Assembly: GCA_002373775.1 (NCBI GenBank)
Contig: DFJW01000095.1
Span: forward strand, 1-42,418
Direction: 5' to 3'
Length of the DNA stretch: 42,418 nucleotides
Source: Ruminococcus flavefaciens
GTDB lineage: Bacteria; Bacillota; Clostridia; Oscillospirales; Ruminococcaceae
Shown: positions 14,027 to 42,418 of the stretch, piece after piece
Layout: each line of letters opens with the position of its first letter
Numbering within the stretch: the stretch's first letter is position 1
Position numbers and translations under genes: made by a program
The notes under the pieces: generated by a model
What the model was told of the DNA's origin: nothing
Databases searched by the model: none
What the model saw: the letters and a program-made list of their open reading frames with translations, nothing else

Positions 14027-15100
14027 TCAGTTCACGATACTTATATATTCCTTTGCAACGTAGCCGTAGCCGTCCTTGTACTTTATCTTGTACCAGCTAC
14101 CCTCTTCGCCGACGATATCAACTGTTCCTCCCTTTGCGGCTGAACCTATGATGTCACTGTTGGAAGATGCGCTCTTTCTGATGTTGAGGTCGGTCTCTTT
14201 GGTCATGACCTTGCCTTTTCGGAGAACTTCCTCGGCTTTCTCGGTGGTCGGCTGTGTCTGAACCGGCTGTGTACCGGCTTCTGTTTCGGTCTCAGGCTCT
14301 GTAGCTGCCGGACCTTCCGTCGGCATAGGACCTCTGGAGTAAACTATCATTATCATCTCGCCCTTTGCCACTACAGTGCCGGGTTCAAGATTCTGCCTTA
14401 CAACATTGCCTTCCGGCACTTCATCGTCATAGGTAAATATGGGTTCGGGATAGATCGTCAGACCTGCCTCCTCTGCTTTATGCACAGATTCGACATATGA
14501 TAATCCGGAGAGATCAGGGACCACCACTTCGTCCGAATCAGGTTCTGTCTCGGCAGGGAGCTCAGTCTCGGTCTCCATTTCGGTCTCTTCTTCAGTATCT
14601 TCTTCTGTTTCTTCTTCTGTTTCTTCCTCAGTTTCTTTGATCGAATATGACGAGGAATCCCTTGCACTTCTGGATGAAGAACCGCCTGCTCCTCCGTCAT
14701 CGTCATCCTTGTTCATTAAAAGGAATACGCAGACGCCTGCTACCGCCAGCAGGAGCAGGATGATTATGATTATCAGCACAGGCATCATATTGCCGCCGCC
14801 ATTGCCGTTATCAGGCTGTGTACGGTAACGTGGATCCTGCGGATATACGCCGTTGGGCTGATAAGGATTTCCCTGCTGCTGGAACGGATTCTGCTGCACT
14901 CCCTGAGCCTGCTGATAAGGATTCCCCTGCTGGAACGGGTTCTGCTGTGCCCCCTGAGCCTGCTGATAAGGATTCCCCTGCTGGAACGGGTTCTGCTGTC
15001 CTCCCTGAGTCTGCTGATAAGGATTTCCCTGCTGCTGGAAAGGGTTCTGCTGATAAGGTCCATTCTGCTGATAGCCATTCTGACCGAACTGATCTGACAT
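14027..15100 (-). CDS. Membrane-anchored PASTA plus SH3b protein with Q/N-rich repeat N-terminus
   Basis: The 357-residue protein has four parts. Residues 1-100 are low-complexity, built from repeats like NPYQQAQG and QQNPFQQG. A single membrane helix (106-129) is followed by a basic/acidic patch and a Glu/Thr-rich stretch (156-190). A PASTA domain at about 191-257 (VVVPDLSGLSYVESVHKAEEAG to VYSRGP) and a bacterial SH3 domain at about 296-357 (TDLNIRKSASSNSDIIG) lie outside the cell. PASTA domains bind uncrosslinked peptidoglycan in kinases such as PrkC/PknB, and SH3b domains bind wall peptides. The gene starts 17 nt after the Ser/Thr kinase gene at 15118. It appears to supply, in a separate chain, the wall-sensing module that is normally fused to such kinases. 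The start has GAGGAGG upstream. Confidence 0.88.
   Translation of the reverse strand: MSDQFGQNGYQQNGPYQQNPFQQQGNPYQQTQGGQQNPFQQGNPYQQAQGAQQNPFQQGNPYQQAQGVQQNPFQQQGNPYQPNGVYPQDPRYRTQPDNGNGGGNMMPVLIIIIILLLLAVAGVCVFLLMNKDDDDGGAGGSSSRSARDSSSYSIKETEEETEEETEEDTEEETEMETETELPAETEPDSDEVVVPDLSGLSYVESVHKAEEAGLTIYPEPIFTYDDEVPEGNVVRQNLEPGTVVAKGEMIMIVYSRGPMPTEGPAATEPETETEAGTQPVQTQPTTEKAEEVLRKGKVMTKETDLNIRKSASSNSDIIGSAAKGGTVDIVGEEGSWYKIKYKDGYGYVAKEYISIVN
14855..15070. repeat. In-frame tandem repeats encoding QQNPFQQGNPYQQAQG units
   Basis: Within the 5' end of the PASTA-SH3 gene, units of about 48-51 bp (GGAACGGGTTCTGCTG and CTGATAAGGATTCCC blocks) recur about four times. They are in frame, so copy number could vary without a frameshift. 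The repeats keep all other frames open, which produces spurious overlapping reading frames. Confidence 0.8.
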
Positions 15101-15117: not shown

Positions 15118-16881
15118 TTATTTTGTTATATTTATTTTCTTGGAATACTTGACTTCGCCGTTATATATCCAGCTGACTGTGACTTCGCCGGTCTTGTACA
15201 CTGTAAAGGTCTTGTCTTCATGAAATTCTATTATTGAAGGATCAGATGATTCACGGACCACATCCTTTCCGAAAGGTCCGGTGTTTTTCACTTCCAGTTC
15301 CAGTTCAGCGGATTCGCCTGTTTCTTCTCCGTAGAATGAGAGCCGGCAGGTCTTGTCCTTGCCTTTGAGCTCGGATGCGTCTATGGTGATCGTATACTCA
15401 TTGCCGTCACGTTCCGAATAGATGCTTATATCAGGCGGAGCATCGCAGTACAGCTTTTCAGTAGCATCACTGTTCACTGTTACCGTGACAGTGGTCTCAG
15501 CATGAGTGACCGAATTATATGAATAGCCGAAAAGCTTTCCGATATCCGACATCCGCACTTCATCCGGACAGACTACATCGGTTATCTCTATGTCGTCGTA
15601 TATCTCGATGACGGCTCTGTTGGAATCAAGTTCGACTGAACTTATGGGAACTGTCTTCTGCCCGGAACTTCCGTCATTGTGTTCGTTGTAGAGCTTGTAT
15701 CCGGCAATTGCCGAAACTGCGAGCACTGCTATCGAAAGCAGCACCACCAGCCACACCAGTATGCCTGAACTGCTTTTTCTAACAGGCGGTGCAGGATACG
15801 GATTGTTCATCGGATATACCGGCTGCATCATTGGCTGAGGCTGCATCACCGGCTGTATGACCGGCTGAGGCTGCATCGACGTCATCGGCATAACACGAGG
15901 CGGTATCTGCTGCACCTGTACAGGTACCGGCTGATCGGGGACAGCAGCCGGAGCTGTCTTCTTTCTGTTGAGCGCGTCAAGGTCGCTGAGCATCTCATCA
16001 ATGGTCTGATACCTCTCGCTTCTGTCATATGCACATGCTTTGAGTATTATTCGTGCAAATTCGTCAGATGCGTTTGAAGGCTTAGGCAGCGGCACGCCTT
16101 TCATACGTTTGTCAACGGCTGCTTCTGCCAGCATTTCCTTTTCAAACGGCATATAATAATCGTTCATGAACCTGTAAAGGCATATGCCGAAGGAATATAT
16201 ATCCGCCTGTGCGGTGTAATAATCGCCCTTCTTGGATTTTGAAAAATACACTTCCGGAGCAAGATATCCGGCAGTACCGGCAAAAGTCGTGGAACGGACG
16301 GTCTGCTTGGAGATGTTGAAATCACCGAGCTTGAACACGCCGTCGGTGCTGTAAAAGAGATTTCCCGGTTTAAGGTCGCGGTGGATTATGCCGCGGTCGT
16401 GGGCATCTTTTATGCCGTGTCCGATATCATGGGCAAGGCGGCGGATGTTGTTCTCGGTGAGTTTCAGCTTCTTGTCCTTGATAAGGTCGCGGACACATTC
16501 CAGATACTCCATGCGTATGAGGAAGTAATAGCCTTCGAGTTTGCCGTCTATATAAAGTTCCCTGATGTCCTCATCCTGATATGCGACGATATACCTGCTG
16601 TTGCGCAGTTCGTACATTATAGTTGATTCATTATCCACAAGGCTGCGTTTGTACTCTATAGAGCGCCGACGGAGATCCTCATCCAGCAGAGTAGTCTCAT
16701 CCGGCACTATGGGTTCTATTTTAAGGGCAGAAATATCAGTACGGTTCATGCGCCGCGCGGCTATCTTGTACACCGCACTGTAGCTGCCTGAGCCGATATG
16801 CTCCTGAATGTACCAGTTTTCCCAGAGAGGCTGTTTTATCTGCCCGAGTATCGCTCTTATTATATCTTCAGAGTTTTCCAA
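15118..16881 (-). CDS. Transmembrane Ser/Thr protein kinase with Ig-like extracellular region, DFN motif
   Basis: The 587-residue kinase has its catalytic domain at about 23-300: the glycine loop IGSGSYSAVYKI, Lys54 in ALKIE, HRDLKPGN (Asp169), and APE at 208-210. The magnesium motif is DFN (187-189) in place of DFG. A Pro/Gln/Met-rich linker (about 310-368) precedes one membrane helix (374-394). The outer part (about 405-587) has two beta-rich domains resembling bacterial Ig-like folds. The N-terminal motif QPLWENWYI is shared with the kinase at 40552-42240. The start is a TTG at 16881, supported by GGGGGG upstream and by alignment with the paralogue's N-terminus. The partner PASTA-SH3 gene follows 17 nt downstream. 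Wall or envelope stress sensing is inferred. Confidence 0.88.
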   Translation of the reverse strand: MENSEDIIRAILGQIKQPLWENWYIQEHIGSGSYSAVYKIAARRMNRTDISALKIEPIVPDETTLLDEDLRRRSIEYKRSLVDNESTIMYELRNSRYIVAYQDEDIRELYIDGKLEGYYFLIRMEYLECVRDLIKDKKLKLTENNIRRLAHDIGHGIKDAHDRGIIHRDLKPGNLFYSTDGVFKLGDFNISKQTVRSTTFAGTAGYLAPEVYFSKSKKGDYYTAQADIYSFGICLYRFMNDYYMPFEKEMLAEAAVDKRMKGVPLPKPSNASDEFARIILKACAYDRSERYQTIDEMLSDLDALNRKKTAPAAVPDQPVPVQVQQIPPRVMPMTSMQPQPVIQPVMQPQPMMQPVYPMNNPYPAPPVRKSSSGILVWLVVLLSIAVLAVSAIAGYKLYNEHNDGSSGQKTVPISSVELDSNRAVIEIYDDIEITDVVCPDEVRMSDIGKLFGYSYNSVTHAETTVTVTVNSDATEKLYCDAPPDISIYSERDGNEYTITIDASELKGKDKTCRLSFYGEETGESAELELEVKNTGPFGKDVVRESSDPSIIEFHEDKTFTVYKTGEVTVSWIYNGEVKYSKKINITK

Positions 16882-34059: not shown

Positions 34060-34107
34060 AAAAATTGGCAGTTATTGCCCCGACATCAACAATTTATGGG
34101 GGAAATC

Positions 34108-36249
34108 ATGGCTAACGTATTTGCAATTTGTTATAAGTGTAAAAAAAGGATCCGTGTTGACGACACAGAAGACGCATGGATCTGTAAATTCTGTAAAAAA
34201 CCGTTCATCGTTGAAAAAGCGGTAGCTCTTTTCAACGAAACTGTACATGACGGCAAAGGAACCCCGAGAAGAGTAGAAGTCAAGCTCGTAAGGCCTCACG
34301 CAAAACGTGTACAGACTGAGGAAGTGACTATCGAAGAGGATATCAACATAGTTTCATCTTCCACTGAAAAAGAAGAACTTGAGAAAAAGGCTGAGAAAAA
34401 GATCGAGGATGCAAAGCCTGTTCAGCAGCCTGCACCGCAGAAGAAGGCTGAGGACGTTAAACCTGTTCAGCAGCCTGTTCCTCAGAAAAAGGCTGAGGAC
34501 GTGAAGCCTGTTCAGCAGTCTGTTCCTCAGAAGAAGACTGAGGACGTGAAGCCTGTTCAGCAGCCTGCACCGCAGAAGAAGACTGAGGACGTTAAACCTG
34601 TTCAGCAGCCTGTTCCTCAGAAAAAGGCTGAGGACATTAAACCTGTTCAGCAGCCTGTTCCACAGAAGAAGGCTGAGGACGTTAAACCTGTTCAGCAGCC
34701 TGTGCCTCTGAAAAAGGCTGAGTACGTTAAACCTGTTCAGCAGCCTGTTCCTCAGAAGAAGGTTGAGGACACCAAACCTGTTCAGCAGCCTGTTCCTCAG
34801 AAAAAGGTTGAGGACGTGAAGCCTGTTCAGCAGCCTGTTCCACAGAAGAAGGTTGAGGACGTTAAACCTGTTCAGCAGCCTGTGCCTCTGAAAAAGGCTG
34901 AGGACGTTAAGCCCGTTCAGCAGCCTGTGCCTCAGAAAAAGGTTGAGGACGTTAAACTTGTTCAGCAGCCTGTGCCTCAGAAAAAGGCTGAGGACACCAA
35001 ACCTGTTCAGGCTCCCGTAGTTCAGCCTGCTGTTCACACCATACCTCAGAAGAAATCTGAGGAAATAAAGCCGGTTCAGAAACCTGTAACTCAGCCGGCG
35101 GTTCACACTATACCGCAGAAAAAGGCTGAAGAAATCAAGCCTGTTCAGCAACCTGTGCCTCAGAAAAAGGCTGAGGATGTTAAACCTGTTCAGCAGCCCG
35201 TTCCTCAGAAAAAAGCTGAAGAAATCAAGCCGGTTCAGCAGCCTGCTCCTGCACAGAAGGCAGCCGAGGCTAAGCCTGCCGGCGAAAATGATTTTGACAT
35301 CAAGTTCAATGTGCTCATCAAGTACAAAGGAAACGCTGAGCGCGTTGAGATACCAAGAAATGTCAAGGAGATCGGTGAACACGCTTTCGAGAACTGTTCT
35401 TCGATAAAGCAGGTCATCATCCCTCAGGGCGTTACAGCTATAGGCGGTTACGCTTTCCGTAACTGCTCTTCACTCGAAGAGATAAAAATACCGGTAAGCA
35501 TGATAAAGATCGGAGAATGGGCATTCAGAGACTGCATCAGCCTCAGATCATTCTTCCTGCCGAGTTCTGTTACGGTAATTGAAGAAAGCACTTTCGCAGG
35601 ATGCGAAAGCCTCGTTTCTGTCGAAATGCCTAACCGCATCACTGACATCCGCGCATTCGCCTTCATGGGATGCAAGTCTCTGGAATCCATATGGCTCCCC
35701 AACACCCTCAAAGTGCTCGGAAAGTACGCATTCAAGGGATGTGAAAAGTTGGAGAGCATTGAGATATGCGACGGCGTCACAGCAATCGAGAACAACGCCT
35801 TTGAAGGCTGCTCCAATCTCTCGAACCTGACCATATCCAAGACAGTGCGCACTATCGGCGAATTTGCTTTCAAGGACTGCGTATCGCTGAAAACCGTTTC
35901 TATCCCTTACAGCGTTACTTCTGTTGACGGTTTCAGAGGATGCAAGAATCTCAAGGCGATAAACATCCCCGAAGGAGCCACATTTATAGGCGATTTCAGC
36001 GGCTGTTCAAGCCTTGAATCCATCAAGATACCAAGTACTGTAAAGAAGCTCAGCACACCTTTCAATGACTGCCCCGAACTTCTCAATATTACATGGCCAT
36101 ATCTTATGGATAACCTGAAAATGTTCCCTGCATATCAGGAAACTGTATTTGAACAGCGCCGCTCTGAAAACAAATGCGTTTACTGCGGCGGTGATTTCAA
36201 ACTCATCGGCAAAGTCTGCAAAGTTTGCGGTGCTAAAAAAGATTATTGA
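34108..36249 (+). CDS. Double zinc-ribbon protein with Pro/Lys repeats and BspA-type leucine-rich repeats
   Basis: The 713-residue protein opens with a zinc ribbon (about 5-35, CYKCKKR and CKFCKKP). A charged segment leads to 18 units of the type KPVQQPVPQKKAEDV (about 99-390). A leucine-rich part of the LRR_5 (BspA-like) family follows at about 405-680, with nine to ten units such as IGEHAFENCSSIKQVIIPQGVTAIGG. It ends in a second zinc ribbon (CVYCGGD and CKVCGAK). There is no signal peptide, although most LRR_5 proteins are secreted, so it is probably cytoplasmic. The repeat region should be an extended, flexible spacer. A binding role for the LRR part is likely; no partner is shown. The ATG at 34108 has GGGGGA upstream. 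Confidence 0.85.
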   Translation: MANVFAICYKCKKRIRVDDTEDAWICKFCKKPFIVEKAVALFNETVHDGKGTPRRVEVKLVRPHAKRVQTEEVTIEEDINIVSSSTEKEELEKKAEKKIEDAKPVQQPAPQKKAEDVKPVQQPVPQKKAEDVKPVQQSVPQKKTEDVKPVQQPAPQKKTEDVKPVQQPVPQKKAEDIKPVQQPVPQKKAEDVKPVQQPVPLKKAEYVKPVQQPVPQKKVEDTKPVQQPVPQKKVEDVKPVQQPVPQKKVEDVKPVQQPVPLKKAEDVKPVQQPVPQKKVEDVKLVQQPVPQKKAEDTKPVQAPVVQPAVHTIPQKKSEEIKPVQKPVTQPAVHTIPQKKAEEIKPVQQPVPQKKAEDVKPVQQPVPQKKAEEIKPVQQPAPAQKAAEAKPAGENDFDIKFNVLIKYKGNAERVEIPRNVKEIGEHAFENCSSIKQVIIPQGVTAIGGYAFRNCSSLEEIKIPVSMIKIGEWAFRDCISLRSFFLPSSVTVIEESTFAGCESLVSVEMPNRITDIRAFAFMGCKSLESIWLPNTLKVLGKYAFKGCEKLESIEICDGVTAIENNAFEGCSNLSNLTISKTVRTIGEFAFKDCVSLKTVSIPYSVTSVDGFRGCKNLKAINIPEGATFIGDFSGCSSLESIKIPSTVKKLSTPFNDCPELLNITWPYLMDNLKMFPAYQETVFEQRRSENKCVYCGGDFKLIGKVCKVCGAKKDY
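34402..35280. repeat. 18-unit 45-bp tandem repeat inside the zinc-ribbon LRR gene
   Basis: Thirteen consecutive 45-bp units are followed by two expanded units of 69 bp (adding VVQPAVHTI or VTQPAVHTI) and three further 45-bp-type units. All are in frame, so copy-number change by slippage or recombination would alter spacer length without a frameshift. Variation between units is concentrated at a few positions (A/V/T-E-D, V/T/I-K, Q/L-K-K), consistent with partial homogenisation. The antisense strand is free of stops across the repeat, which creates a false reading frame. Confidence 0.9.
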
Positions 36250-36255
36250 TACCAG

Positions 36256-36281
36256 ACGGGCGGCATATAAATGCCGCCCGT
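36256..36281 (+). terminator. Terminator of the zinc-ribbon LRR gene
   Basis: The 11-bp stem ACGGGCGGCAT / ATGCCGCCCGT has a 4-nt loop and is followed by a short TTTC tail. Confidence 0.75.
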
Positions 36282-36287
36282 TTCATG

Positions 36288-36316
36288 TTGACAAATCCCG
36301 TCAATGAGAGTATAAT
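36288..36316 (+). promoter_or_regulatory. Consensus promoter of the lipoprotein gene
   Basis: TTGACA (36288-36293), 17 nt and TATAAT (36311-36316) lie 43 nt upstream of the ATG. Confidence 0.85.
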
Positions 36317-36358
36317 GTGTATATATATCACTTATTCCGAACAAGAAAGGGAAAGACC

Positions 36359-37267
36359 ATGGATTTCAAAAGATCACTTGCAATTCTCATTGCATCCGCT
36401 ATACTGACATGTACAGCTTCATGCGGTAAGGGAAAGAATTCAGACAGCAGCGCTGAGACTTCTTCCGCAGTCTCCGGAGATACCATATCTACAGAGGATA
36501 CCAGTGCCGAGGATGATACCGATGATACATCTGAAGAAGAAACCGAGACTGACAGCTCATCTTCTGCTACTACTGAAGATACATCAGATGCATCCGAGGG
36601 CTACACTGTAAAAACTTCCACTACTGAAAGCACCACCTCTGCTTCCGGTACCGAAAAATCCGGCACAACCAAATCCGCCAAGACCACTACTGTGACTACC
36701 ACAAAGAAAACTGAGCAGACTACTACCAAACCGGCGGATAAAAAAGAGAACAAGAACAACAATAGCAGCCAGTCCGGTTATAAGACCTGCGATGAACTTG
36801 CATACGCCTATTATCAGGCATATCTCGACCATGATGCGGAAGCAGTATATGCTATGTTCAGCGAGGAAGAGATAGAAGGTTATCTGAAAGCAGTGTCCGC
36901 AGAACTTGGTGACGAAGACCTTTCCGGTTACTTCACCAAAACCGAGATAATCAAAGCTATCAACAAGTCAATGGACAATGTCAGCGAGATAATGAAGTAT
37001 TACGGCGACTCAGACAGCGACGAATGGACTTTCATCTTAGAAGAAGCTATCGACGATATCGAGGAAGAGGACCTCAATAACTTCAACAAGCAGCTTGGTA
37101 CGGATTTTGATTCCGCCCGCGACTGCCAGATAATGTTCTATCACGACGAAAACAACGACAAGTCATTCACCGGCAACAGCAGTTCATTCCTTGAAAAGGA
37201 CGGAAAATGGTATCTTTCCATCTCCAATGCTATGCGCACAGACCTCATAAACTTTATGTTTGAATAA
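36359..37267 (+). CDS. Putative lipoprotein with Ser/Thr/Glu-rich linker
   Basis: The 302-residue protein has a lipoprotein signal (KRSLAILIASAILTCTASC, acylated Cys22). A long Ser/Thr/Glu/Lys-rich linker (about 23-138) follows, then a compact alpha/beta domain of about 160 residues (ELAYAYYQAYLDHDAEAVYAMF, then FLEKDGKWYLSI at the end). The domain resembles NTF2-like or DUF4878-type ligand-binding folds, but the family is not certain. It would be anchored on the outer face of the membrane. The start has AAAGGGA about 9 nt upstream. It stands alone, convergent with the kinase cassette. Confidence 0.8.
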   Translation: MDFKRSLAILIASAILTCTASCGKGKNSDSSAETSSAVSGDTISTEDTSAEDDTDDTSEEETETDSSSSATTEDTSDASEGYTVKTSTTESTTSASGTEKSGTTKSAKTTTVTTTKKTEQTTTKPADKKENKNNNSSQSGYKTCDELAYAYYQAYLDHDAEAVYAMFSEEEIEGYLKAVSAELGDEDLSGYFTKTEIIKAINKSMDNVSEIMKYYGDSDSDEWTFILEEAIDDIEEEDLNNFNKQLGTDFDSARDCQIMFYHDENNDKSFTGNSSSFLEKDGKWYLSISNAMRTDLINFMFE

Positions 37268-37271
37268 AATC

Positions 37272-37318
37272 ATCCCTCCCGTGACTTCCGGACTGAGCCG
37301 ATCCGTCATGGGAGGGAT
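37272..37318. terminator. Bidirectional terminator between the lipoprotein gene and the kinase-ABC cassette
   Basis: A 14-bp stem (37272-37285 with 37305-37318) has one imperfect position, a G-U pair in the plus-strand RNA. The plus-strand tail is ATTCTTATG and the minus-strand tail is GATTTTATT. It lies between two convergent stop codons. Confidence 0.65.
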
Positions 37319-37322
37319 ATTC

Positions 37323-38147
37323 TTATGCTTCTATCACTATACAAGTAACATTATCAACTCCGCCGTTTGCTACAGCCTGTGTTGCCAGCTCATAGGCGGT
37401 GTTCTTTTTCTTCTTTTTCATTATGGAAGCTATCTCTTCGTCACTGCACATATCCGTAAGACCGTCACTGCATATCAGCACGCAGCCTTTCGATATGTCT
37501 ACCGGAGGATACGCCTGCGCTTTCAGTCCGATACTGCGGGCATCGACGCCGAGGAAAGTCGTTATCTTATGCGAATCATCGCTCTGACGCGCTTCTTCCT
37601 CTGTGTAGATATTGGCTTTCAGCTTCTTCATAGCCAGTGTCTGGTCTTCTGATATCTGCGTGAGGACATCATCGCAGTAATAATACACCCGGCTGTCTCC
37701 GATGCTGAATATATAAGCATCTGTGCCGTCCACGAATGCCATTGACATCGTACTTCCGCTCAGGTTAGCCTTTCGCTCTTCTACCATATGGCAGATGCGG
37801 TTATTCGCCTCGGAACAGTACTCGTTGACTATGGCAGGTATGTCTTTCAGGTCTGCCCGGCGCATATTCTCGGCATATTCCTTCAGTGTATCGACTGATA
37901 TCTCAGATGCTACATCACCAAATTCCTCGCCGCCCATTCCGTCACAGACTGCAAAGACATATCTCTCAGATTCCCTGAGCGTTCTTGTTTCGGCATGATT
38001 CTCAGCCGGACGTGTACCTATAGCGTCTGCAAAGTAGTTATCTTCATTTGCCTGACGCACCTTTCCAACATTCGTCGCAACACTGACGCTGACGGTCTGA
38101 TATTCCTTTTGTCCCGCAAGTTTCCGGAAAAATTCTTTTATTCCCAT
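37323..38147 (-). CDS. PP2C-family Ser/Thr protein phosphatase
   Basis: The 274-residue metal-dependent phosphatase shows the PP2C motifs in order: NVGKVRQANEDNYF (metal Asp), FAVCDGMGGEEFGDVAS, GSTMSMAFV, IFSIGDSRVYYY, DQTLAMKKL, LICSDGLTDM and GGVDNVTCIVI. It would remove phosphates placed by the kinase at 40552. It is the last gene of the four-gene cassette. Its ATG is 9 nt after the permease stop codon, and its ribosome site GGAG lies inside the permease gene, so translation is coupled. No membrane helix or extra domain is present. Confidence 0.93.
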   Translation of the reverse strand: MGIKEFFRKLAGQKEYQTVSVSVATNVGKVRQANEDNYFADAIGTRPAENHAETRTLRESERYVFAVCDGMGGEEFGDVASEISVDTLKEYAENMRRADLKDIPAIVNEYCSEANNRICHMVEERKANLSGSTMSMAFVDGTDAYIFSIGDSRVYYYCDDVLTQISEDQTLAMKKLKANIYTEEEARQSDDSHKITTFLGVDARSIGLKAQAYPPVDISKGCVLICSDGLTDMCSDEEIASIMKKKKKNTAYELATQAVANGGVDNVTCIVIEA

Positions 38148-38156
38148 AATATCAGC

Positions 38157-38990
38157 TTATGCTCCTCTGTTGCGTATTTTAAGGCTCAATATACTGATGA
38201 TGACACACACTATGGATATAAGTGCGATTATTCCCCATGCCTTGAGAAGTGTCTCGCTGTCGAATTCGTATATCTCATTGCCCGGCTTAGGCAGCGGATA
38301 TCCGGATGTCTTTGCTGCTTTAAGAGGCAGGCGGTCAGGATCGTTAAGATCTGCGATGCTTCCCAGCGCTGACATTCCCCATTTGCTGAATGTGATATTA
38401 GCTATGACCTCTGACCAGCCTTCAAGTACGAAGAGCACTCCGCACATTACGAGCTGAAGTATCAGCACGAAAGGCATTGCAGTCATTGCCACATTCGGAT
38501 TAGATGCAACTGAGGATATCATGATACCCATGATATCGCTTCCCCATATTACCAGGAAAAGGGTTATGAAATACTCAGGTATCGCACCGAAAAGTATTCC
38601 TTCCGTGGGGAAATCAATAAATACACAGCAAACAGCCATGAGTATGACTGCCTGAATCAGACATACAAAGAAATCAAAAAGGACATGCGAAAGAATGTAT
38701 GAACTTATGTGCAGTCCAGAACGGTACTCGCTGGTGATGGTGTTATGCTCCTTGCATATACGCTGTATGGAATTGAATACGCCTATCCATATGCCGGCAG
38801 AAATTATCGCAAAGAAGCCGGACTGTGTGTCGTCGTATGTCTCGAACATTTTATCTCCCACGATAGCACATACAAGAAATGAGATAACTGCTGCTATGAG
38901 TATGAACTTCCAGTCTCTCTGATTCATGAACAGGCGGAAATTCTTTTTAATGTATACCTGTGTCTGTTTTGCTCTTGATGTTTTAGCCAT
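38157..38990 (-). CDS. ABC-2 / ABCG-like transporter permease
   Basis: The 277-residue membrane protein has about six helices (for example FILIAAVISFLVCAIVG, SSYILSHVLFDFFVCLIQAVILMAVCCVF, AMPFVLILQLVMCGVLFVL). The layout matches the ABCG-type half transporter membrane domain, including the long loop before the last helix. It starts 1 nt after the stop codon of the FHA-ABC ATPase gene, so it is its membrane partner. In Mycobacterium Rv1747, the same modules (FHA, FHA, ATPase, membrane domain) are fused in one chain. The direction of transport is probably export, by analogy with ABCG proteins. The substrate is unknown. Confidence 0.88.
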   Translation of the reverse strand: MAKTSRAKQTQVYIKKNFRLFMNQRDWKFILIAAVISFLVCAIVGDKMFETYDDTQSGFFAIISAGIWIGVFNSIQRICKEHNTITSEYRSGLHISSYILSHVLFDFFVCLIQAVILMAVCCVFIDFPTEGILFGAIPEYFITLFLVIWGSDIMGIMISSVASNPNVAMTAMPFVLILQLVMCGVLFVLEGWSEVIANITFSKWGMSALGSIADLNDPDRLPLKAAKTSGYPLPKPGNEIYEFDSETLLKAWGIIALISIVCVIISILSLKIRNRGA

Positions 38991-38991
38991 T

Positions 38992-40539
38992 TTAACCTCT
39001 CCTCGTCCTCTCGAATTTATCTATGAATTCGTCGCCTCTGCCCTTGCCGCCTTCATAGTTGATCTCCATTACTATCTCACTCAGCTTGTTCACTCCGAAG
39101 AAACCGAGCGCATTCTGGACATCGCCGTAATAAGCAAGTCTGCCGACATTATCGCGTTTGCTCTTGGCGAGTACTATGACTTTGGTGAAAAGATGAGCCG
39201 CATCATCAGGAGAATGTGATATGACTGCGACCACACCGCCTGTATCGGTACAGGATTTAAGGTTCGTCATGAGGTCGAGACGTGTAGCATAGTCCATACC
39301 GGAATCGGGTTCGTCAAGTATGAATACCTGCTGATCGCCTATTGCCTGTATAGCGACCTCAACGCGCTTTTTCTGTCCGCCGCTGAGCTCACATATCTTG
39401 TGGTTTTTCAGGCTTGTGAGCATCATGCGCTGGATTATGACATCAACGCGCTGCTCTATCTCGGCATTGCTGTATTCGCCGGAAAGCGTGGAATCAGCTG
39501 TATCCTTTATGGTGTGGTACACTGTGTCGTTGTCTCTCGTTGTGGAGAACTGCGGAACAAGTCCTACCTTGTGCTTCAGCATCTTGAAGTTCTTGTAGAG
39601 ATTCATATTGTCCAGCAGTACGATACCGTGATTCTTTACACCGTTCCTTCCGCGGGGACCGAGAAGTGCATTTATAAATGTGGTCTTGCCTGCACCTGAG
39701 CCGCCGAGGATGAGTATGAAGTCACCGGATTCGATATCCAGTCCGATGTTGCTGAGCAGGTTCCTGTGGCGGAAGAGTCCGCCGACTCTTGAATACTCGA
39801 TACCGACCTTCATGACCACTGTACGCTGCTCATAATCCTGCTTCTCCACCTTGACCTGAACACTGTTGAACAGTACTTCATCCTCAAGGAATATGAGAGT
39901 GGTATTGGCGATACGGATTATATCAAAGGGATTCAGCATGACAGGATCATGTATCTCATTGCGGTTCACTGCCAGTCCGTTGGTGCTGCCGTTGTCGTTT
40001 ATCTGCCACTTGTCACCGACCTTGTGCATTATAGCGTGGTTGCGTGAAGCCATAAAATCCGTAAGGCAGATGCCGTTCTTGATATTTCTTCCTATAGGAA
40101 CGACCGTCTTTCCGGCAAGAGGATATCTGTTCCACTTTTCATCCACGCTGAAAGTCGTGCTGAAAATAATTACAACTGCTTCCGGATGAGGCTGGTCAAG
40201 ATTCTTTCTGTCTATCCTGAGCACATCTCCGTCGTTGAGCTGGACCGCCTTTGAACCGCGCTCATTGATGTTCAGGAGTTTTTCGCCGTTGTAGTATGTA
40301 CCGTTGAGGCTCTTGTTGTCCTTATAATAGTACAGACCGTCGGCACAAATGAATTCACCGTGGTCACGGGAAACGATGCTGGAATTCAGCCTTATGGCAC
40401 AGGTGCTCTCGGGAGTGTTCCTTCCTATGCGCATGTCGCCGTCAAGTGATACCAGCCTTACCGCGCCTGAAGCTTCCATTACAAGAAGCGTAGCAGGTTT
40501 CGGAGGCAGCGGTTTATAGTATACAGTTTTATTATCCAT
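38992..40539 (-). CDS. ABC transporter ATPase with two N-terminal FHA domains
   Basis: The 515-residue protein begins with two forkhead-associated domains. FHA1 (about 35-110) shows IGRN, SRDHGEF (57-63) and SLNGT. FHA2 (about 145-215) shows IGRN, SRNHAIM (165-171) and GSTNG. Each pattern is the phosphothreonine-binding signature. The ATPase domain follows, with Walker A GGSGAGKTT (279-287), Q330, signature LSGGQKKR, Walker B VFILDEPDSG and His442. The architecture is that of M. tuberculosis Rv1747, except that the membrane domain is a separate gene. The FHA domains would dock on phosphothreonines, probably made by the kinase encoded just upstream (40552-42240). The start has AAGGAG overlapping the kinase stop codon. 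Confidence 0.93.
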   Translation of the reverse strand: MDNKTVYYKPLPPKPATLLVMEASGAVRLVSLDGDMRIGRNTPESTCAIRLNSSIVSRDHGEFICADGLYYYKDNKSLNGTYYNGEKLLNINERGSKAVQLNDGDVLRIDRKNLDQPHPEAVVIIFSTTFSVDEKWNRYPLAGKTVVPIGRNIKNGICLTDFMASRNHAIMHKVGDKWQINDNGSTNGLAVNRNEIHDPVMLNPFDIIRIANTTLIFLEDEVLFNSVQVKVEKQDYEQRTVVMKVGIEYSRVGGLFRHRNLLSNIGLDIESGDFILILGGSGAGKTTFINALLGPRGRNGVKNHGIVLLDNMNLYKNFKMLKHKVGLVPQFSTTRDNDTVYHTIKDTADSTLSGEYSNAEIEQRVDVIIQRMMLTSLKNHKICELSGGQKKRVEVAIQAIGDQQVFILDEPDSGMDYATRLDLMTNLKSCTDTGGVVAVISHSPDDAAHLFTKVIVLAKSKRDNVGRLAYYGDVQNALGFFGVNKLSEIVMEINYEGGKGRGDEFIDKFERTRRG

Positions 40540-40551
40540 ACTTCTTACTCC

Positions 40552-42240
40552 TTAACTCCACTCGCAGACAAATCCGTAATACTCTATAGGTGCTCCGCTG
40601 TCGCCCTTGTTTGCAGTATCTATCCAGCCTCCTGCATTGGCATACCAGTCATCAAAAGTCATATCGTCGTTGGCATATCTTATGTAATATTCATTTCCGG
40701 TATAGTTATCAGGCTGACGGTGTATCTTTCCGTAGCTGTCCTCATAGTAATCCCAGTTGGAATAATCACTGAAATCCGAGCCGTCTGTCCAGTACCATGT
40801 ATTTTCGTCTTCCTTTGTGCGGTATCCGCCGATCCATATATTATCCGCCATTTCGGAAGATGTAAGACCGGTCACGAACTTCTGCTCGCCCTTGCTGTTT
40901 ATAGAAACCAGATGTCCTCCCTGACTTACGCAGAATTCCTCTGCTTCACGCCATGTGACAGCCTTTCCGTAGAATTTGTAGTAATGTCCGTCGTATTCCT
41001 CGGCATCGTCCGGCGCATCTGTCGATGACTTCGAACTGCTGCTGTCCTTATCCATGAAAGCTTTTATGCCAAAGAAGCCGCCTGCTCCGAGTGCTGCAAC
41101 AACGACCAAAGCAGCAGCTATTGCAGGGAGTTTGCTCTTTTTCTTTCCCTTGCCTGCTGATGAGGCCGTAGTGTCAGCACTTTCTTCGATGTATACAGTT
41201 CCGCTTCCGGTGTTGATGGAAGGTATCTCCCTTGACACTGCACTGTGCTGACTGAAAGGATTTGCAGGGCTGTCAGAAAATGTGTTCCTGTATATACCGG
41301 GATCATATGTATTGGAATTGATAGTGCTTGAAGTACTGCCGCCGAATCTGAGCGCGTTTATGTCGTTCACCATTTCTTCTGCGCTCTGATATCTGTCCTT
41401 GGGATCATATGCACAGGCTTTGAGGATTATGGCTGCGAACTCCGGAGAAGCATTCTTCGGAGGCGGCAGCGGATCGCCGTTCATTCTGCGGTCTATCGCC
41501 TCTTCAACAAGGCAGCCGTCCTCAAATGGGAAGCAGTAATCGTTCATCAGCTGGTAGATACATATACCAAGAGAATATATATCAGCCTGATTTGTATAGG
41601 AGTTGTCAACACTCTGCTTTGCCTTGTATATCTCAGGCGCGATGTAGCCTTCGGTTCCGGCAAAGGAACGTGCAGACGCTGAGCTCTTGGAGATATTGAA
41701 ATCGCCGAGCTTATACACATTATCCTCAGACACGAAGAAGTTGGCAGGCTTGACATCGCGGTGTATTATGCCGTTGTCATGGGCTGCTTTGAGTCCGCTT
41801 CCGATATCAGCGGCAAGCTTCAGCACATTCGCCTCTGAGCGGTCGAACCTCTTCTCCTTGACCATTGTCTGGAGACAGGTCAGATACTCCATTCGTATCA
41901 GGAGCACATAGCCCTCTGTATTCTGGAGCTTCATTATCGTCTCATCCTCATATCCGACGATATACGGGCATTTTTTCAGTTTGTACATGATAGTCGTCTC
42001 ATTGACGGCTGCCTGTCTCTTCTTTTCCAGATATGCCTTTTTTCTGTCTTCGTCGAGATACATCACATCATCGAGTGTTATCGGTTCTACTTTAAGTGCC
42101 GAAACATCGGTCCTGTTCTCTCTTTTTGCTTCTATACGGTATACAACGCTTGAAGCACCCGAACCGAGTTCTTCAACGATATACCAGTTTTCCCAAAGTG
42201 GCTGTTTTATTTCAGCCATAATGGCTTTGAAATCCGCCAT
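40552..42240 (-). CDS. Transmembrane Ser/Thr kinase with extracellular C-type lectin domain
   Basis: The 562-residue protein has an N-terminal kinase domain (about 18-297): the glycine loop LGSGASSVVYRI, Lys50, HRDVKPAN (160-167) and APE (201-203), with DFN (180-182) in place of DFG. A Ser-rich linker precedes one membrane helix (about 371-393). The outer region (about 415-562) is a C-type lectin domain: TWREAEEFCVSQGGHLVSI, NIWIGGY, WYWTDGSDFSDYSNW, a QPDN segment (509-512) at the calcium-sugar site position, and the closing FVCEW. Only the outer disulfide cysteines (437, 559) are kept. Kinase and lectin in one chain suggests that sugar or envelope binding controls phosphorylation. The ATG at 42240 has GGAGG upstream; longer in-frame starts read through the promoter region. 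Confidence 0.92.
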   Translation of the reverse strand: MADFKAIMAEIKQPLWENWYIVEELGSGASSVVYRIEAKRENRTDVSALKVEPITLDDVMYLDEDRKKAYLEKKRQAAVNETTIMYKLKKCPYIVGYEDETIMKLQNTEGYVLLIRMEYLTCLQTMVKEKRFDRSEANVLKLAADIGSGLKAAHDNGIIHRDVKPANFFVSEDNVYKLGDFNISKSSASARSFAGTEGYIAPEIYKAKQSVDNSYTNQADIYSLGICIYQLMNDYCFPFEDGCLVEEAIDRRMNGDPLPPPKNASPEFAAIILKACAYDPKDRYQSAEEMVNDINALRFGGSTSSTINSNTYDPGIYRNTFSDSPANPFSQHSAVSREIPSINTGSGTVYIEESADTTASSAGKGKKKSKLPAIAAALVVVAALGAGGFFGIKAFMDKDSSSSKSSTDAPDDAEEYDGHYYKFYGKAVTWREAEEFCVSQGGHLVSINSKGEQKFVTGLTSSEMADNIWIGGYRTKEDENTWYWTDGSDFSDYSNWDYYEDSYGKIHRQPDNYTGNEYYIRYANDDMTFDDWYANAGGWIDTANKGDSGAPIEYYGFVCEWS

Positions 42241-42289
42241 AATCTCTCCTCCATCCGACTTACTCTTATAAATATAAAGATTCTTATTT

Positions 42290-42318
42290 ATTATAGCATA
42301 TAATTTGGAAAATAGCAA
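42290..42318 (-). promoter_or_regulatory. Proximal promoter of the kinase-FHA-ABC-PP2C cassette
   Basis: On the minus strand TTGCTA (42318-42313), 17 nt and TATAAT (42295-42290) lie about 50 nt upstream of the ATG. It is contained in one copy of a 33-bp direct repeat. Confidence 0.7.
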
Positions 42319-42323
42319 CATAC
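42291..42323. repeat. 33-bp direct repeat, copy 1 (promoter-bearing)
   Basis: This copy is identical at 32 of 33 positions to the copy at 42386-42418 and lies 62 bp from it. Each copy carries the -35 element TTGCTA, a 17-nt spacer and a -10-like element, so it is a duplicated promoter. Confidence 0.9.
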
Positions 42324-42370
42324 GCGCGAAAAAAAATGCCGTTTGTAATAACTCAGCCGCGTTCAAGGGT

Positions 42371-42385
42371 GCAGCGTCACGCTGC
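42371..42385. other. Short inverted repeat between the two promoter copies
   Basis: GCAGCG and CGCTGC form a 6-bp inverted repeat around TCA directly next to the -10 of the distal promoter copy. In a transcript from that promoter it would form a hairpin at the 5' end; in DNA it could be a protein-binding site. Confidence 0.45.
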
Positions 42386-42418
42386 TTATAGCATATAATT
42401 CGGAAAATAGCAACATAC
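42386..42418. repeat. 33-bp direct repeat, copy 2 (reaches the window end)
   Basis: This distal copy has the same -35 element (TTGCTA, 42413-42408) and a -10 of TATAAG (42390-42385). The window ends inside or at the edge of the repeat, so its full length and number of copies are not visible. Confidence 0.88.

Follow-up and report, generated by a model that had tools for sequence, protein, structure and literature searches.

Introduction

The closest described counterpart of the system considered here is the ABC transporter Rv1747 of Mycobacterium tuberculosis, in which the threonines phosphorylated by the kinase PknF sit in the linker between two FHA domains. It was reported that Rv1747 is a substrate of PknF, that their interaction needs both FHA domains, that the transporter is positively modulated, and that specific Rv1747 threonines are phosphorylated by the kinase (PMC3908365). 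The linker between the two FHA domains was described as disordered, and the FHA module as forming condensates upon phosphorylation (PMC11326607, a review). Furthermore, FHA I of Rv1747 also binds the phosphorylated stress protein Rv2623, which turns the transporter down (PMC5549992), and FHA genes of M. tuberculosis were found to cluster with those of kinases and phosphatases (PMC1262709). In DgcB, GarA and OdhI the FHA domains bind their own N-terminal tails, and the tail of DgcB bound in this way is hydrophobic at positions +2 and +3 (PMC6733907). The present study concerns a four-gene cassette coding for a kinase with a lectin-like domain, an FHA-FHA-ABC ATPase, an ABC-2 permease and a PP2C phosphatase, located in a 42,418-nucleotide stretch of Ruminococcus flavefaciens DNA (assembly GCA_002373775.1, contig DFJW01000095.1). 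This stretch, referred to as the window, corresponds to contig C60 in a draft genome of 2.84 Mb (115 contigs, 87% complete, 5.8% contamination).

We read the cassette, with a probability of about 0.6, as a phosphothreonine-controlled ABC exporter in which the kinase and the ATPase would share FHA-docking phosphothreonines, a proposal built on sequence comparison and on the likeness to Rv1747. Kinase control of an FHA-FHA-ABC exporter is already known from Rv1747; what is new is a conserved threonine in the tail of the ATPase together with a similar motif in the linkers of the kinases. The initial annotation of the window was aware of no published description of exactly this combination, which holds for the open-access literature searched (subscription papers lie mostly outside it), where the set was not described for Clostridia, but the core idea had been published for Rv1747.

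Results

The four genes lie on the minus strand in the order kinase, ATPase, permease and PP2C, with gaps of 12, 1 and 9 nt according to the list of open reading frames (ORFs). The first (40552..42240) codes for a transmembrane Hanks-type Ser/Thr kinase of 562 aa (Pkinase, 1.4e-35, residues 22-291), with a hydrophobic helix beginning at about residue 370 and an outer C-type-lectin-like sensor domain (40555..40962; PF00059, Lectin_C, 1e-13, residues 427-503) whose best PDB relatives by sequence are animal C-type lectin domains. The second (38992..40539) codes for the 515-aa ATPase (Pfam FHA, 6.5e-27 in two stretches, and ABC_tran, 2e-22; AlphaFold mean pLDDT 88.4). By Pfam and alignment, FHA1 (40213..40431) and FHA2 (39883..40125) each carry the GR, S-x-x-H and NG motifs; GR, H and NG are invariant in both domains in 13/13 aligned rows, and the serine of FHA1 is nearly invariant. 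Among solved sequences the best neighbour of FHA2 is Rv1747 FHA-2, with EmbR, GarA, DgcB and OdhI also among the nearest. The spacing between the two Pfam FHA matches is about 30 residues and is modelled at pLDDT 85-86, that is, as no disordered linker. The nucleotide-binding domain (39304..39756; sequence motifs and Pfam) holds GGSGAGKTT, LSGGQ and FILDEP, and across distinct split ATPase sequences, those with the permease encoded apart, the P-loop was found in 38/41 and an [LI]SGG signature also in 38/41. ABCG transporters took Foldseek ranks 1-8 for the ATPase model, and the best NCBIfam match was the ABCG-type TIGR00955, at a score far below its cut-off. The third gene (38157..38990) encodes an ABC-2 type permease of 277 aa (PF01061, ABC2_membrane, 2.9e-18), which gave 0 matches to PDB sequences at E 1. 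The last (37323..38147) encodes a PP2C phosphatase of 274 aa (PF13672, PF00481; PP2C_2, 5.8e-12), which scored 163.2 bits against a cut-off of 230 on the Stp1/PrpC model NF033484 and is nonetheless a PP2C by Pfam.

Much of what had been proposed from the letters of the window was borne out. The ORF coordinates, Pfam domains and intact motifs agree with four packed genes; the assignment of a writer, a reader, an output and an eraser is backed by Pfam on all four proteins and by a genome search for co-occurrence, in which the set recurred across genera; and the suggested likeness to Rv1747 and PknF is seen in FHA2, nearest to Rv1747 FHA-2, and in the adjacent kinase. Three ribosome sites had been placed inside or overlapping the ends of preceding genes, and these were located by reading the sequence: AAGGAG overlaps the kinase stop ahead of the ATPase gene, GAGGAGAGG lies within the end of the ATPase gene ahead of the permease gene, and GGAG falls in the last part of the permease gene, at the long spacing of 14 nt from the PP2C ATG. 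The terminator claimed after PP2C corresponds to a terminator-like minus-strand hairpin at 37265..37325 with a U-rich 3' side carrying GAUUUUAUUC; it folds at -30.1 kcal/mol (z -4.45), better than 200/200 shuffles, none of which equalled it (0/200), and its absence from the pattern-scan list is explained by the loop limit of 8 nt in that scan.

Relatives in named records include R. flavefaciens and uncultured Ruminococcus, and they are patchily distributed. The whole ATPase as query matched 15/125 genomes of the genus (12 over residues 1-515 and 3 partially), the FHA-FHA part matched 10/247 genomes of the family at E 1e-15, and the FHA-FHA profile A1, at E <1e-30, matched 14/394 genomes of the order and 8/391 of the class, the own genome being counted in each. 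A census through the FHA-FHA-ABC protein, with partners sought within 5 kb on either strand, gave 56 loci (L numbers below), 39 of them split and 17 with the membrane domain fused to the ATPase. FHA-ABC ORFs below 400 aa were excluded, which left out L124 (its kinase served as a control); L062, which is interrupted, and L063 and L064, partial or FHA-less, also stand outside the census. A kinase was present in 46/56 loci and a PP2C in 42/56. The own genome has 12 kinase matches in 2.84 Mb, from which a kinase would be expected by chance within 5 kb of about 5% of loci, and the observed co-occurrence is thus beyond chance. Of the split loci, 34 had an adjacent permease, 29 a PP2C and 31 a kinase, and the full set of three partners was present at 24; of the fused loci, 15 had a kinase, 13 a PP2C and 12 both. 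Five of the eight kinase-free split loci (L016, L020, L070, L075, L127) lie at most 1.4 kb from a contig end, and the other three (L059, L076, L089) do not. Gene order is flexible, with the kinase first, for example, in the window, L014, L021, L055, L057 and L067, last in L013, L015, L018, L022, L060, L061, L065 and L069, and on the opposite strand in L087; of the gene-order conservation that had been looked for, the recurrence of the set in related genomes stands but the constancy of order does not. No constant cargo candidate was seen among 10 neighbouring proteins from 7 loci, which include a GH9 protein, a transpeptidase, peptidase M15 (twice), an SH3 protein and others.

Ahead of FHA1 lies an N-terminal tail (40513..40539, minus strand; MDNKTVYY) predicted to be disordered (pLDDT <50 at residues 1-9), in which Thr5 is conserved. 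This threonine was invariant in 13/13 aligned rows and in 45/45 rows of our own choosing (the window, 39 of 120 homologous proteins and 5 loci). The strict pattern T[VILM][YLMFH][YC] was present within the first 60 residues of 90/120 ATPase homologues, and the looser T.[YFHMLCG][YFC] within the first 45 residues of 111/120; three of the nine proteins not matching the latter (P0041, P0044, P0062) have longer N-termini with the looser motif further in. In the loci themselves, T.[YFHMLC][YFC] was found in 31/41 distinct split ATPase sequences, all four threonine codons being used, and several fused-class tails read [DE]KTT.[FY]. In the AlphaFold model the threonine is only about 11 residues ahead of the first FHA strand. 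Given how short the tail is, it would more probably bind an adjacent subunit or another transporter than its own FHA1. No constant motif with the same threonine was seen by eye in the N-termini of the permeases or phosphatases; the PP2C N-termini read KT[IV]KLE in L014, L016, L021 and L057 and TIIYE in L058/L059.

A similar motif appears in the cytoplasmic linkers of the kinases. For this comparison, kinases that were identical or overlapped were counted once, the split set took in second kinases close to the cassette as well as the two upstream kinases of L017 and L019, and the three kinases of contig C8 of the own genome were counted among the controls. T.[YL]A was found in 19/38 split-cassette linkers, 0/17 fused and 5/51 controls (split against control, Fisher p 3e-5, uncorrected for kinship), and in 7/15 split against 4/25 control linkers after thinning at 60% identity. 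When the linker letters were shuffled, the motif occurred in a mean of 2.1 linkers (maximum 6) against the 19 observed, and the 32 sites in split linkers compare with a shuffled mean of 2.2 and a maximum of 7. Three of the five controls with the motif (L086, L151, L152) are cassette-cluster kinases beyond the 4.5 kb limit, and L114 and L134 come from cassette-bearing genomes. A looser form was present in 20/38 split, 0/17 fused and 8/51 control linkers; TVYIEE of the window kinase (Thr348; 41182..41199, minus strand), a candidate FHA-docking motif, fits this form only. Among readable lectin-kinase linkers the strict form was seen in L021, L055 and L065 and not in the window, L014 or L057. In the kinases with a DUF6273 region (n=5), the T, L, A and E of T-[IM]-L-A-E are the main invariant cluster of an otherwise variable linker. 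The fused class has a motif of its own, T[TVAI].V[RK], in 8/17 fused, 0/38 split and 1/51 control linkers (L086). Compared over 44 loci, threonine-centred heptamers of tail and linker scored 463 within loci against 393.7 between loci (sd 22.5; 3/2000 permutations), and 369.9 with the linker letters shuffled (sd 25.5, maximum 447).

The sensor part of the kinase is exchanged between loci. A survey by Pfam of 20 kinases of 19 loci, the remaining kinases being judged by sequence, revealed a lectin fold, SH3, F5/8-type C, leucine-rich repeats, NPCBM, a pectate-lyase-like domain or no known domain. Lectin-fold kinases were found in the window, L014, L021, L055, L057 and L065, the last with SH3 as well. 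Those of L015, L017, L018, L019 and L022 have 0 predicted membrane helices and a tandem DUF6273 region, assigned by Pfam in L015 and in the others by alignment of all five, and as these five lack a predicted membrane helix, the input cannot in general be a sugar outside the cell. The DUF6273 sensor model was poor (pLDDT 62.5, 5-row alignment, one PDB match below E 0.001) and was not used. The canonical calcium and sugar motif of C-type lectins is EPN or QPD plus WND. Among 7 cassette lectin domains QPD was present in 2/7 (window, L055) and W-N-D in 0/7. It had been proposed that a sugar-type or envelope signal bound by the lectin domain controls export through the transporter; because loci differ in their sensors and show no conserved sugar motif, a lectin-bound sugar was dropped as the general input. 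No PASTA repeats were found by Pfam in the window kinase, which scored 120.5 bits against a cut-off of 450 on the NCBIfam kinase model. Its DFG motif reads DFN, and GDFN is present in 23/39 split-cassette, 0/17 fused and 13/55 control kinases.

Other kinases may feed the same transporter. Among readable linkers of the own genome (L011 and L012 not being covered), the looser motif was found in the cassette kinase and in the tandem L004 (1 copy), L005 (2) and L006 (5) on contig C8, with 0 copies in L001, L003 and L007-L010. A second, divergent kinase lies beside the cassette in L014, L021 and L057, that of L014 having DUF5050. Taken together, the C8 kinases with the linker motif and the divergent second kinases suggest, at the level of sequence, that several sensors serve one transporter. 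In the C8 region (L146, 924-7980) an amidase_3 gene follows the three tandem kinases, whose linkers carry T-x-[YL]-[VIY] motifs, and two of the three have DUF5050 and Big_2 domains. Just upstream of the cassette in L017 (3124-6087) and L019 (639-3607) are a PP2C and a kinase with outer repeats that look PASTA-like by eye. The window itself has a second Ser/Thr kinase (15118-16881), with no motif in its linker, followed by a protein with PASTA and SH3 domains (14027-15100).

With regard to the flanks, the kinase ATG at 42240 is preceded by GGAGGAGA, and the frame is open upstream as far as a TTG at 42366 in the ORF list; the ATG is the likely start. A promoter-like TTGCTA-17-TATAAT with an extended -10 (42290..42318, minus strand) lies 50 nt upstream of this ATG and is a consensus match only, such matches numbering 7 in the region against a shuffle mean of 9.1, so that the region is not enriched in them. 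A 33-nt direct repeat (97%) occupies 42291-42323 and 42386-42418; the first copy holds most of the promoter-like site, and the second coincides exactly with the end of the contig, which lies 178 nt upstream of the kinase ATG. Rfam gave 0 matches at gathering score across 36000-42418. On the other side of the cassette, 34105-36249 codes for a protein with a zinc ribbon and BspA-type leucine-rich repeats, with many KKAEDVKPVQQPVPQ-like repeats between the two parts.

Discussion

We propose that the membrane kinase would sense a signal through its outer domain and phosphorylate threonines of its own linker and of the ATPase tail. Once phosphorylated, these threonines would be bound by both FHA domains of the ATPase, so that the ATPase docks on the kinase, on adjacent ATPases or on both. 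Such docking would switch or cluster an exporter made of the ATPase and the ABC-2 permease, which PP2C would then reset. That transport is outward and that docking activates rather than inhibits is what we infer. The sensor would be exchangeable, and the transporter may also receive input from other kinases whose linkers hold a similar motif.

Several observations weigh against this proposal. The linker and tail motifs were picked out by eye, post hoc. The strict linker motif is missing from 19/38 split linkers, including the window (TVYIEE), L014 and L057, the strict tail pattern from 30/120 ATPase homologues and the looser one from 9/120, and none of these nine was among the 45 rows in which Thr5 appeared invariant. 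The fused-class motif drops to 1/7 after thinning, and shared ancestry, which the heptamer permutations leave in, may partly explain the match between tail and linker. The motifs were written down before further loci were fetched, and in these later loci the kinase motif was seen in 2/5 split linkers (L128 and L129, of the same genus as the discovery locus L069) and 0/3 fused, and the tail motif in 4/6 split and 1/2 fused; a looser T[VIL].[AY], not among the patterns written down beforehand, occurred in 4/5 later split linkers. At the loci L076 and L089 no partner lies within 5 kb, and a permease is absent from L066 and a kinase from L059. The best PDB matches of the ATPase by sequence are ABCA rather than ABCG transporters. 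Finally, as Rv2623 down-regulates Rv1747 through FHA I, docking could equally inhibit. Given the validation counts, strict threonine motifs were dropped as a universal rule, and their partial hold in the later loci points to a code that is at best clade-specific. It is possible, though somewhat doubtful, that such a clade-specific phosphothreonine docking code lets several structurally unrelated sensor kinases, the three of contig C8 included, plug into one FHA-gated exporter; the form proposed is T-x-[Y/L]-[A/Y/V/I], with a single copy in the tail of the ATPase and frequently tandem copies in the linker of the kinase.

The absence of the strict motif from half of the split-cassette linkers would also fit a control like that of Rv1747 in which no docking code is shared, the kinase acting on other sites of the ATPase and the threonines of linker and tail being just good substrates or neutral. 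Such a reading, which we hold to be rather unlikely, gains from the phosphorylation of specific Rv1747 threonines by PknF (PMC3908365), but it leaves a tail threonine conserved within a segment that is predicted to be unstructured, and a motif that forms the main conserved cluster of the variable linker in the DUF6273 kinases. That the ATPase and permease serve chiefly for signalling, as a sensor or scaffold for which export is not the output, seems improbable: no cargo gene stood out among the 10 scanned neighbours and L066 lacks a permease, but the P-loop and the [LI]SGG signature are each kept in 38/41 distinct split sequences, a permease adjoins the ATPase in 34/39 split loci, a membrane domain is fused in 17 more, and ABCG exporters rank first by fold.

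An anti-phage defence cassette would be a very improbable explanation. The kinase does score with the PADLOC PD-T4-6 and mad6 kinase models, but these matches fall mostly in the catalytic region and reflect generic kinase similarity; those of the ATPase to mad3, mad8 and AriA (9e-22 to 6e-6) cover parts of the protein only, the permease and PP2C gave no PADLOC match at E 1e-5, and sensors are swapped between loci. If the preferred reading, a phosphothreonine-controlled exporter with shared docking threonines, is true, Ruminococcus-group anaerobes would have a modular phospho-relay of Hanks kinases and FHA domains, with one transporter and many sensors, and these bacteria would allow it to be studied outside M. 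tuberculosis. From the conserved threonines follow predictions on the switching of such exporters that can be tested point by point.

In comparison with known systems, Firmicutes pair the PASTA kinase PrkC/Stk1 with the PP2C PrpC/Stp1, unlike the present cassette, which has no PASTA repeats and scores 120.5 against 450 and 163.2 against 230 on the corresponding NCBIfam models. The threonine-phosphorylation pathway of type VI secretion has a kinase, PpkA, a PP2C, PppA, and an Fha reader encoded together, whereas the FHA reader of the cassette is fused to an ABC ATPase; none of the type VI families was found in a scan of 26 proteins of the window, and the genome beyond it was not searched for them. 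Like GarA, OdhI and the Bdellovibrio DgcB, the cassette has a threonine-containing tail ahead of an FHA domain with hydrophobic residues at +2 and +3 (PMC6733907), but its threonine lies only about 11 residues before the first FHA strand, its output would be a transporter and a similar motif recurs in the kinase linkers. Unlike PknF-Rv1747, the cassette has its membrane part in a separate gene (38157-38990), a PP2C of its own, no disordered FHA-FHA linker, a conserved threonine in a short N-terminal tail, and swappable sensors; as Rv1747 has the membrane domain in the same polypeptide and a disordered FHA-FHA linker and the cassette has neither, it was not classed as a member of the Rv1747 type. 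Like PknF-Rv1747, it has an FHA-FHA-ABC ATPase adjoining a Hanks kinase, the two FHA domains at the N-terminus preceding an ATPase part that is ABCG-like by fold, and the FHA-2 of Rv1747 is the nearest solved sequence to its FHA2.

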